Below are positions 33,168 to 36,059 of a stretch of 41,575 bases of DNA, piece by piece. The stretch is from a virus. The notes beneath the pieces were generated by a model. That model was not told where the DNA came from and searched no databases. It saw only the letters and a program-made list of their open reading frames with translations. Each line of letters opens with the position of its first letter. Position 1 is the stretch's first letter. The stretch lies in the IMG/VR virus record IMGVR_UViG_3300036859_000167, positions 1-41,575 of that record; one strand, 5' to 3'. Made by a program: the position numbers and the translations under genes.

Positions 33168-33665
33168 CTAGTCCCCTGTCAGCGGCGCATCCGCAAGGGG
33201 CGCTGCGGAATCTGGAGTGCTCAAACGTCGCTCATTCACCGAAGTGTGAAGCGCGTTGTAAACTTGAGCCTCGGTGCAGTTCAGGCGGAGCGCTATCGCC
33301 AGAGTATCCATGTGATGCTCGGTAAACAGACGCCTGACTTCTGCCGCGAGAACCGCAGAGGCTTTTGGTTGTGCCTTCATGCCCCTCACGTTTTTCAACA
33401 ATAGGTTGACGATCGTGGTGTGATGCCGGTGCAGTACGCGGCCAGCCTTCGGGCGCGAATATCCAAGCGCATTGACGAGACGATCCGCGGCATAGGCACG
33501 GGCGCTGACCAGACGCTTTTCACGACACTTGCCGAGCAGACCGTTGCGGGTCACCCCGAAGCGCTTGCAGGCGTCGATGATCACCATGTCGGTGATGCCT
33601 GGCAGAGGCTGCCTCGGAAAGAACTTGCTGCCGGCAATGACCGGACGAGTGCCGAACTGGGTCAT
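33168..33665 (-). CDS. DnaA domain IV-like DNA-binding protein
   Basis: The 165-residue product has, at about 26-93, the pattern of the DnaA C-terminal DNA-binding domain: DMVIIDACKRFGVTRNGLLGKCREKRLVSARAYAADRLVNALGYSRPKAGRVLHRHHTTIVNLL. In DnaA the corresponding elements are I..VA..F.I....L..K.R....V..R..A..L......S...IG...GGRDHTTV; the HRHHTTI (79-85) stands for the signature that contacts the DnaA box. No ATPase domain is present. A second HTH follows near 105-145 (LRLNCTEAQVYNAL). It may bind the phage origin or compete with host DnaA. ATG at 33665 overlaps the gcrA stop (ATGA). Confidence 0.78.
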   Translation of the reverse strand: MTQFGTRPVIAGSKFFPRQPLPGITDMVIIDACKRFGVTRNGLLGKCREKRLVSARAYAADRLVNALGYSRPKAGRVLHRHHTTIVNLLLKNVRGMKAQPKASAVLAAEVRRLFTEHHMDTLAIALRLNCTEAQVYNALHTSVNERRLSTPDSAAPLADAPLTGD

Positions 33666-34174
33666 GCCACCACCTCCGGCAGATCGAAATTGCGCTTGAT
33701 CGCAAAGCCATGACTGCCAGACCGGCGTTGCGGCGCGGTGTAGACGACCCGCAAATGGAAATCGCACCACGGCTTCGCGGCGCTGGCGCACGGGTTGCCG
33801 CAGAACGTCACCGCGCGCTCCCCGTCGTCGGGATACTTGCAGGTGAAGTTACCGAGCTCCATGATCGACAGAAGCAGGCTCTCCGGCATGGGAACCTCCA
33901 CAGGTGGCTTGGGCTTGGCGACGTGGGCAGGCACGATGCGCGGCCGGCGGAAGCGTTTCGCGAGCGAGTAGTCCACGCGCGGATCGTGCTTGCGCTTCTT
34001 GGCGCGCGGCGTTCCCGGCTCTTTCCTGACGGGTAGATGCAAGCGGTGCGCCCGGCCGATAACCGCGTTCTTGGTCGCGTTGCCGATGATTTCGGCGATC
34101 TGCTTCGCCGGCATCGTGCCCCACAGTTCGGTCAGCCTGGCGTCGTCGGCCTTGCCCCATCGAAGGTTAGCCAT
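33662..34174 (-). CDS. gcrA: GcrA-family cell-cycle regulator
   Basis: The 170-residue protein has the GcrA N-terminal domain: LRWGKADDARLTELWGTMPAKQIAEIIGNATKNAVIGRAHRLHLPVR (residues 4-50), in which W...D..L..LW..M...QIA...G..T.NAVIG.AHRL.L..R is diagnostic. The basic middle is followed by the Cys-rich C-terminal part LGNFTCKYPDDGERAVTFCGNPCASAAKPWCDFHLRVVY. In Caulobacter and relatives GcrA binds sigma70 and activates promoters carrying methylated GANTC sites. A phage copy may redirect transcription or cell-cycle timing. It lies next to an adenine methyltransferase gene, which is notable. The start is ATG 34174. Confidence 0.92.
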   Translation of the reverse strand: MANLRWGKADDARLTELWGTMPAKQIAEIIGNATKNAVIGRAHRLHLPVRKEPGTPRAKKRKHDPRVDYSLAKRFRRPRIVPAHVAKPKPPVEVPMPESLLLSIMELGNFTCKYPDDGERAVTFCGNPCASAAKPWCDFHLRVVYTAPQRRSGSHGFAIKRNFDLPEVVA

Positions 34175-34352
34175 AGAACCGCACCTCCCCCGGCATCCCC
34201 CACTGGATCATCTCGACTCCGGAATAGGAGAGGTAGACGTAGACACGGGGCCTCGACTCCCGACGGATGCGAGAACGATGAACCGCGAGCAACGCGACGA
34301 GCTCGCGGGCGGCTTCACGCAAGTCCGGCAAAGGGAGGCGGAGCGCAGTCAT
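34167..34352 (-). CDS. Small protein between methyltransferase and gcrA
   Basis: The 61-residue product MTALRLPLPDLREAARELVALLAVHRSRIRRESRPRVYVYLSYSGVEM ends WGMPGEVRFYG. It is basic, helical at the N-terminus and beta-rich at the C-terminus. The start overlaps the methyltransferase stop (ATGA) and the stop overlaps the gcrA start. The fixed place between the two genes suggests a shared transcript, but function is unknown. Confidence 0.65.
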   Translation of the reverse strand: MTALRLPLPDLREAARELVALLAVHRSRIRRESRPRVYVYLSYSGVEMIQWGMPGEVRFYG

Positions 34353-34960
34353 GGCTTGCGGCCCTCCCAAAACATCGTCGGGTTTCGCGGGACGCGCGGC
34401 GTCGGTCCCCACACAAACCAGGCGTGGTCCTCTGTCCCCGTTTCGCCGTCGAGCGTCCAACTCAACCTATCGACAAGGGCGACCTTCGCCATGAAGCGGG
34501 GGTTATCGCGAAAGAGATGGCGGCGCGTTTTGCCGAAATCGAACTTCGCCGTCAGCAACAGCGCGACCAAGCCATTGCAGCGGCGGAGCGCCTGTTGCGC
34601 AAATCGCACCGCATCGTGATTGCCGCGACCGTAAGGCGGATTCGTGATGAGCGCCTGTGTAGGCTTCCACGAAACGGTTATGTTCTGGCTGGCGCGGCCG
34701 GGGAAATCTGTGTCATGATCCGGCCGCAGAAAATCAAAGAGAAAATCATGCCGGCGGTCGTACATGGCTATATCGCTAGTCACCACCTCGGCGGCTCCGG
34801 ACTCGCGAAGCACGTCCGCGATTAAGTGGTTTCCAGCGGCAGGCTCCCATACCGAAACTCCGACGACAGGAAACTGTCGCAGCAATGCCTCCGTCGCCCA
34901 CGGCTCGGTCTGGTAGAGGTCGTTTTCCTTGCGGGCATAATTCGAGGCGACGACGGTCAT
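34349..34960 (-). CDS. N6-adenine DNA methyltransferase
   Basis: The 203-residue protein has a SAM-binding motif VWEPAAGNHLIADVL at about 38-51 (motif I), SDIAMYD at 62-68 (motif II acid), and the catalytic ITNPPYGRG with NPPY at 107-110 (motif IV), the pattern of amino-methyltransferases acting on adenine N6. The size, 'EPAAGxHLIADVL' and the final DHAWFVWGPTP block are typical of phage methyltransferases without a separate large target domain. The recognition sequence cannot be read from the protein. Products should protect phage DNA or mark promoter sites. It is linked to gcrA through one small gene. Confidence 0.9.
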   Translation of the reverse strand: MTVVASNYARKENDLYQTEPWATEALLRQFPVVGVSVWEPAAGNHLIADVLRESGAAEVVTSDIAMYDRRHDFLFDFLRPDHDTDFPGRASQNITVSWKPTQALITNPPYGRGNHDAVRFAQQALRRCNGLVALLLTAKFDFGKTRRHLFRDNPRFMAKVALVDRLSWTLDGETGTEDHAWFVWGPTPRVPRNPTMFWEGRKP

Positions 34961-35019: not shown

Positions 35020-36059
35020 GCTGCGACACGCTCCGCTTGGAGATGCGCAAGAATGGCGTTGCCGATTATTTTGGGGATCTTCGAGACGACGGCGTTGCCG
35101 AGGGTTCGCAATCGGTCCACCCGAGAGGGAATCCCATGAGCCACTCGACCCACGTCGGGTTCAGGGACCCACTGCCCGTTTGCTCCCGCAAGGCATCCGG
35201 CAAGCTGTCTGGTAATTTCCCCGACGCGCGGCGCGCTTTGCTCATCGAGGACATCTTCACGCCGTCGCCAGCTAGCGGCGTTGGCCACATGCCGCGAGCT
35301 TTTGCCGCCTTGCGGCTGTTGCTGCCTCCATCCAGCCCCGTCGTTCGTGGCGTCGGCCAGAGACTCTGGTTCACTGCTCGCCCGAGCTCGTTCCCGCTCG
35401 GGCCGTTGCTCTTGCCGTCCTGACTGAAGCCGTGCGGCGTGGGCCACATCGGCTCCCCCTTCGGGCCGTATCCACGGTTCGCGCAATGCGACAATTGCAG
35501 GCTGTGCATCCCCTTGGTTTCCGTCCGACCCTTCGCCATCATCGTCGCGTCGATCGATGTTGGGGTAGGCCACGATCCAGAGCCGGTCGCGTCTGTGAGG
35601 GGCGCCAACGGCGGCAGCAGGTATGCAATGCCACTCCGCATCAAACCCGAGCGTGGCCAAGTCCCCGAGAACAACGTCCAGTCCTCTAGAAAGGAGCGCT
35701 GCCACGTTTTCCACGATGACAAAACTAGGTCGTATCTCGTCAACAAGGCGGGCGTATTCCGTCCATAGGCCAGAGCGCTCGCCCTTAATTCCGGCGCCTT
35801 TTCCAGCGAAGCTAATGTCCTGACAGGGGAAGCCTCCGCAGATGACATCCACGGAAATTCCGTCTGCGGAGAGCCGTTCGGCGGTGAGTGTTCGGACATC
35901 TTCGTATTGCCTCACCGTGGGCCAGTGCTTCGCGAGCACGCGCCGGCAAAAAGGATCAATTTCGCAGAAGGCGACCGTTTCAAATCCGCCCGTGCGCTCC
36001 AACCCAAGGCTGAAGCCGCCGATGCCGCTGAACAAATCGAGCGTCTTGAGTTTCTCCAT
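35016..36059 (-). CDS. DNA (cytosine-5) methyltransferase
   Basis: The 347-residue enzyme has all main motifs: LDLFSGIGGFSLGLERTGGF (motif I, 7-26), GGFPCQDISFAG with catalytic Cys79 (motif IV, 75-86), VIVENVAALL (motif VI, 114-123), PHRRDRLWIVA (motif VIII, 154-164) and RLRTLGNAVVSKIPKIIG at the end (motifs IX-X). Residues about 165-315 form the variable target-recognition part, in which DVAHAAR, SLADATN and HVANAAS repeat the V/LA(D/N/H)A theme. It should methylate a specific cytosine in phage DNA and so protect it from host restriction. Within this variable part a second long frame is read (35066-35899). The start follows the rusA stop directly. Confidence 0.93.
   Translation of the reverse strand: MEKLKTLDLFSGIGGFSLGLERTGGFETVAFCEIDPFCRRVLAKHWPTVRQYEDVRTLTAERLSADGISVDVICGGFPCQDISFAGKGAGIKGERSGLWTEYARLVDEIRPSFVIVENVAALLSRGLDVVLGDLATLGFDAEWHCIPAAAVGAPHRRDRLWIVAYPNIDRRDDDGEGSDGNQGDAQPAIVALREPWIRPEGGADVAHAARLQSGRQEQRPERERARASSEPESLADATNDGAGWRQQQPQGGKSSRHVANAASWRRREDVLDEQSAPRVGEITRQLAGCLAGANGQWVPEPDVGRVAHGIPSRVDRLRTLGNAVVSKIPKIIGNAILAHLQAERVAA
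35066..35899 (-). CDS. Nested WPTP-repeat protein in an alternative frame of the m5C methyltransferase gene
   Basis: A 277-codon frame lies wholly inside the methyltransferase gene, on the same strand. Its product has a composition and motif order I recall from annotated phage proteins: AYGRNTPALLTRYDLVLSSWKTWQRSFLEDWTLFSGTWPRSGLMRSGIAYLLPPL at 44-98, then four WPTP motifs at about 110, 152, 181 and 205, and a terminal WVEWLMGFPLGWTDCEPSATPSSRR block. Where this frame reads WPTP, the methyltransferase frame reads VAYPN, VAHAA, LADAT and VANAA. The ATG at 35899 lacks a strong Shine-Dalgarno sequence. An internal ATG near residue 18 is possible. It may be a true overlapping gene or the remnant of a fusion read in the wrong frame. 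Confidence 0.5.
   Translation of the reverse strand: MSEHSPPNGSPQTEFPWMSSAEASPVRTLASLEKAPELRASALAYGRNTPALLTRYDLVLSSWKTWQRSFLEDWTLFSGTWPRSGLMRSGIAYLLPPLAPLTDATGSGSWPTPTSIDATMMAKGRTETKGMHSLQLSHCANRGYGPKGEPMWPTPHGFSQDGKSNGPSGNELGRAVNQSLWPTPRTTGLDGGSNSRKAAKARGMWPTPLAGDGVKMSSMSKARRASGKLPDSLPDALREQTGSGSLNPTWVEWLMGFPLGWTDCEPSATPSSRRSPK

Follow-up and report, generated by a model that had tools for sequence, protein, structure and literature searches.

A gene nested in phage m5C DNA methyltransferase genes probably encodes the TRD and motif IX half of a two-polypeptide enzyme

Lee et al. reportedly described in 1995 that the gene for the small polypeptide of the DNA methyltransferase M.EcoHK31I lies within the gene for the large one, in another reading frame. 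M.EcoHK31I (YGGCCR) and M.AquI (CYCGRG) are m5C DNA methyltransferases (MTases) that consist of two polypeptides (PMC3404938; also PMC3439449). In M.EcoHK31I, motifs I–VIII and X are on the large polypeptide and motif IX is on the small one; the published motif assignment placed the predicted target-recognition domain (TRD) in the large polypeptide (PMC3404938). M.AquI is split after motif VIII, and its second polypeptide comprises TRD sequence and motif IX (PMC3404938).

The window, i.e., the whole stretch of 41,575 nt of the virus record IMGVR_UViG_3300036859_000167 that we analyzed, harbors an m5C MTase gene at positions 36059 to 35016 of the minus strand, on which all window features given below are located. 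The product of this outer gene, a large polypeptide of 347 aa (alpha), matched PF00145 (E 6.5e-43), TIGR00675 (5.6e-36), and phrog_363 (4.1e-82). The PF00145 match was confined to aa 5–167, which correspond to motifs I–VIII, and the TIGR00675 match to aa 7–167 (TIGR00675 2–162). The translation and alignment A3 revealed motif IV with the catalytic Cys79 (GGFPCQDIS, 35811–35837), which is invariant or nearly so, motif VIII (GAPHRRDRLWIVA, 35568–35603), which is the last part of alpha that is matched by PF00145, and motif X (LGNAVVSKIPKIIGNAI, 35040–35102), which is also under codon constraint and whose start overlaps with the last codons of the nested frame. AlphaFold predicted the core of alpha with a pLDDT >90 and the motif X helix (aa 327–346) with confidence, while aa 181–316 were predicted to be disordered. 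Foldseek aligned the alpha model to M.HhaI with an E-value of 1.9e-16, over 171 columns only. The initial annotation of this DNA had considered the motifs of the outer gene to be intact. Motifs I–VIII and X are present, but no TRD or motif IX was recognizable in the frame of alpha by PF00145, TIGR00675, the alignment, or AlphaFold. By its TIGR00675 and PF00145 coverage, alpha of the window does not have the single-chain layout of the dcm/HhaI type, in which motifs I–X and the TRD are in one frame. Split alphas covered only about 2–190 and 280–329 of TIGR00675, whereas single-chain MTases of the same genomes covered 1–329.

Wholly within the alpha gene, on the same strand and in the +1 frame, an ATG-initiated open reading frame (35899 to 35066) encodes a polypeptide of 277 aa (beta). 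We confirmed what had been stated initially about this frame, its coordinates as well as the WPTP motifs at residues 110, 152, 181, and 205, where the alpha frame reads VAYPN, VAHAA, LADAT, and VANAA. Beta has a conserved N-terminal block (SSWKT...FSGTWPRSGLMRSG, 35630–35719), which overlaps with the part of the alpha core that precedes motif VIII and contains the nearly invariant residues T65, P82, G85, and G90. This block is followed by a variable, TRD-like region with the four WPTP motifs (35165–35572) and by a putative motif IX (LNPTWVEWLMGFPLGWTD or, in short, LNPTWVEWLMGFPLGW; 35111–35164), in which N247, V251, E252, M255, and G256 are invariant. Beta of the window matched phrog_1008 ('DNA methyltransferase') with 1e-27, and all 105 aligned nested betas matched both phrog_1008 and phrog_26627. 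The two frames probably encode two halves of one enzyme, a point that the initial annotation had missed.

The motif layout of the window locus resembles that of M.EcoHK31I, since alpha has motifs I–VIII and X and the smaller beta in the overlapping frame has motif IX. It differs from M.EcoHK31I in the position of the TRD, which in the window appears to be in the small nested polypeptide (aa 181–316 of alpha being predicted as disordered and the constraint being in the beta frame) and in the literature is in the large polypeptide. Another difference is that the window gene is a phage gene without an identified restriction partner. The layout of M.AquI is shared by beta homologues of mycobacteriophages. 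The second polypeptide of M.AquI also contains motif X, together with just half of the variable region, whereas beta of the window ends at 35066, is fully nested, and leaves motif X in alpha. Genomes with a separate WPTP protein, for which the initial annotation had suggested searching, do exist: mycobacteriophages as well as Gordonia and Arthrobacter phages encode the beta homologue in a downstream gene of its own with a partial overlap. The product of this gene carries a motif IX-like sequence and then motif X (such as GNGVVPQQA) in one chain, as in an M.AquI-like split.

We collected 241 related loci from IMG/VR and GTDB genomes, covering phages and many bacterial phyla. Beta and alpha overlapped in the identical +1 phase in 235 of these loci, and beta was fully nested in 209 of the 241. 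To remove selection bias, a second set of 80 loci was retrieved with the N-terminus of the MTase (alpha) alone. A motif IX-like end was present in the +1 frame in 75 of the 80 loci; our initial regular expression for motif IX had missed 22 of the 80, most of which have divergent motif IX-like ends, as seen when the frames were read. The frame was free of stops from alpha codon 75 to the motif IX-like end in 71 of the 75. Frequent stops in homologues, which had been named at the outset as the sign of a by-product, were therefore not found in a set that was chosen without using the nested frame. By tblastn with beta, the same nested frame was detected in MTase genes of Microcystis, Synechococcus, Acinetobacter, Paenibacillus, Salmonella, and Klebsiella phages, and a consensus-like beta query matched 701 phage records.

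Some loci deviated from this layout. Three apparent same-frame fusions (L086, L195, and L236) and one apparently separated locus (L239) were rejected, as each proved to be a copy of the nested layout that was frameshifted or broken; the three were not single-chain fusions. At L308, the motif IX sequence (WAEGFMGFPIGW) is in the alpha frame and not in the +1 frame, which may represent either a copy with a frameshift or a rare fusion. The beta open frames near the start of the match are only 9–37 aa long at L105, L138, and L207, a hint of stops in beta or of a recoded stop. Five identical nested MTase regions (L189–L193), some of them about 46–47 kb apart, are present in one chromosome record of an uncultured Roseovarius (OX638333.1) and may be repeated prophages or an assembly artefact.

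We compared the divergence at the three codon positions of alpha. In the phase of the overlap, the third codon position of alpha coincides with the second of beta, and the first of alpha with the wobble base of beta. For alpha positions 1, 2, and 3, the divergence among 46 pairs of homologues was 0.121, 0.074, and 0.424 before beta and 0.137, 0.062, and 0.239 where beta overlaps with the catalytic core. From motif VIII to the stop of beta, i.e., in the TRD overlap, it was 0.288, 0.106, and 0.105, and after beta it was 0.054, 0.056, and 0.389. Thus, the most variable base is the alpha wobble base outside of the overlap and the beta wobble base between motif VIII and the end of beta. These numbers are descriptive, as the pairs share sequences and kinship was left outside the calculation. 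The ratio of divergence at position 3 to that at position 1 (a3/a1) was 0.37–0.51 in the variable region of beta, and past the beta stop the constraint was back on the alpha frame (a3/a1 of 3.1–7.2). A finer profile of 451 pairs showed that the beta signal builds up from about alpha codon 55–100, that both frames are constrained at alpha codons 100–170, where the N-terminal block of beta is located, and that the constraint is reversed in the TRD with a ratio of about 0.5. The same trend was seen in the set found by alpha, although it was weaker (a3/a1 of 3.4, 0.9, and 3.4). Constraint in the MTase frame alone, the other sign of a by-product named initially, was consequently not observed. The reversal indicates that beta is a protein-coding gene and that, after motif VIII, constraint acts mainly on the beta product and not on that of the MTase frame. 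We concluded from these codon patterns that beta is a real gene under protein-level constraint and not a by-product. The initial annotation had offered either a true overlapping gene or a target-recognition region derived from a frameshifted cassette; each of these was right in part, as the gene is conserved and constrained and the TRD segment appears to be read from the nested frame.

A Shine-Dalgarno-like GGTGAGG (35910–35916) is located about 10 nt upstream of the ATG of beta in the window (35899–35897). Across the loci, Shine-Dalgarno-like stretches in front of in-frame ATGs at alpha codons 38–75 were more frequent than in synonymous shuffles, with 33% versus 11% for stretches of at least 5 nt and 17.4% versus 3.8% for stretches of at least 6 nt. 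Since 22% of the loci have no ATG in this interval, other start codons or positions must serve there. The constraint on beta begins near the same interval, and together with the enrichment of Shine-Dalgarno-like stretches this favors an independent initiation of beta over frameshifting. By programmed ribosomal frameshifting downstream of motif VIII, ribosomes entering the nested frame would make one fused chain with motifs I–VIII, TRD, and motif IX. The order of the parts, I–VIII in alpha, TRD and IX in beta, and X in alpha, would fit such a frameshifted single chain, and methyltransferases are among the genes that are known to contain frameshifts (PMC10885494). However, a second and opposite shift would be needed to reach motif X, constraint on the nested frame begins well before motif VIII, and in mycobacteriophages the homologues have been annotated as two separate genes, of which beta has its own motif X. 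The enrichment of ATG and Shine-Dalgarno-like stretches at codons 38–75 also argues against frameshifting, although as an average effect it is compatible with a shift in some members. Overall, we regard frameshifting as very unlikely.

Searches of Pfam, NCBIfam, and PDB sequences with beta gave no meaningful match, and AlphaFold predicted beta alone with low confidence (pLDDT 57). These results would also fit a genuine overlapping gene of unrelated function, e.g., a regulator or an anti-restriction protein. Such a function would leave alpha without a TRD and motif IX of its own, and it would not account for the motif IX-like sequence of beta, which is followed by motif X in the AquI-type homologues, or for a variable WPTP region that is exchanged like a TRD; we consider it highly improbable. 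The beta sequence LNPxWVEWLMGFPxGW is similar to motif IX in enzymes of the single-chain type (e.g., LTPKECQKLQGFPDWF). When nested betas were compared directly to single-chain MTases by hhalign, the match was short and weak and comprised motif IX only. The comparison to AquI-type betas resulted in a probability of 99.9 and an E-value of 3.6e-33. As the direct profile match is weak, the stronger link of beta to motif IX is the transitive one via the AquI-type homologues. The TRD segments were mostly just 4–54% identical between relatives with alpha cores that were 80–94% identical in DNA. This is the pattern expected for exchanged recognition modules. The number of WPTP-like motifs per variable region was mostly 2–4. 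We suggest that the WPTP region varies and is exchanged in the manner of a TRD and that beta is most likely the target-finding part of the enzyme. These phage m5C MTases would then seem to lack a TRD because the TRD half is the nested beta frame.

The length of the open frame was compared to synonymous-codon shuffles of the MTase. The +1 run of the window has 281 codons versus a mean of 175 in the shuffles (p = 0.013), and p was ≤0.05 for the +1 frame in 207 of the 235 homologous loci, compared to 8 for the +2 control frame. Eleven single-chain MTases showed no overall +1 excess, with a median of 74 observed versus 76 expected and p ≤ 0.05 in two of them. That the frame is open merely through the GC-rich codons and the conserved motifs of the MTase, without any protein being made from it, has a nearly negligible probability. 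In its favor, high-GC members including the window are only moderately above the shuffles (several with p > 0.1). Against it, the beta frame is also open where the GC content of the alpha gene is 42–50%, the excess over the control frame is seen in most loci, the constraint in the TRD shifts to the nested frame, and beta homologues exist as separate downstream genes.

We therefore return to the reading of alpha and beta as two halves of one m5C DNA methyltransferase of the M.EcoHK31I kind, with beta comprising the TRD and motif IX, which on the sequence data we consider very probable. According to this model, alpha would bind AdoMet and provide the catalytic Cys79 (motifs I–VIII) and the C-terminal motif X helix. 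Translation of beta would begin independently at the ATG at 35899, downstream of the Shine-Dalgarno-like GGTGAGG, and beta would supply the TRD and motif IX. Binding of beta to alpha would result in an active MTase that reads a specific target sequence and marks the DNA of the phage itself there. The role of the enzyme would be self-modification for protection of the phage, most likely against host restriction, because the phage gene is located beside a RusA-like resolvase gene and another methyltransferase-like gene. The arrangement may go back to a single-chain ancestor whose gene changed frame twice, once behind motif VIII and once ahead of motif X. Each polypeptide would have kept its ancestral parts and gained overprinted ones after these changes. 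A further proposition, which we judge to be evenly balanced, is that the TRD consists of a variable number (mostly 2–4) of WPTP modules, that throughout phages the specificity half is in an alternative frame of the catalytic half, and that the TRD of M.EcoHK31I was wrongly assigned to the large polypeptide. If this is true, any exchange of recognition cassettes must leave both frames open.

GcrA proteins are cell-cycle regulators that are known from alphaproteobacteria and act together with DNA methylation. A GcrA homologue (33665–34174; PF07750, E 1.7e-21) is encoded close to the two methyltransferase genes of the window and suggests an alphaproteobacterial host. The second methyltransferase-like protein (34352–34960; phrog_799, 6.5e-42) has an NPPYG motif and is encoded directly downstream of the m5C pair. 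A phage protein of 207 aa (33171–33791) showed a weak match to the DnaA C-terminal HTH (PF08299, 7.5e-6), which was below the cut-off.

The kind of enzyme is already known from M.EcoHK31I, while the breadth of the nested arrangement, the constraint on both frames, and the location of the TRD in beta appear to be new. Our literature search found no paper on a widespread nested arrangement or on dual-frame constraint. The nested layout is widespread in phages, far beyond what its literature suggests, and is mostly absent from genome annotation. For four prophage loci of E. coli, the alpha gene is the only one of the two in RefSeq (L393, 3411–4439; L394, 2667–3701; L395, 3420–4322; L396, 2683–3735), though a beta frame of 244–311 codons is present. 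In the PHROGs v4 entries phrog_1008 and phrog_26627, as displayed, there is no mention of the overlap or of the protein being only the TRD and motif IX half. The same nested gene is annotated in Paenibacillus phage Shelly (gp56, 'g55 internal gene'), where the function goes no further than 'internal gene', and in Escherichia phage fTaEco03 (TE3_033) as 'putative Mte8-like protein'. Cloning or prediction of specificity from alpha alone is expected to yield an inactive or unreadable enzyme. By its codon-level evidence, the pair demonstrates a real, enzymatic case of a long and conserved gene overlap on the same strand in dsDNA phages, and it represents a natural system for the evolution of two frames under the exchange of recognition modules.
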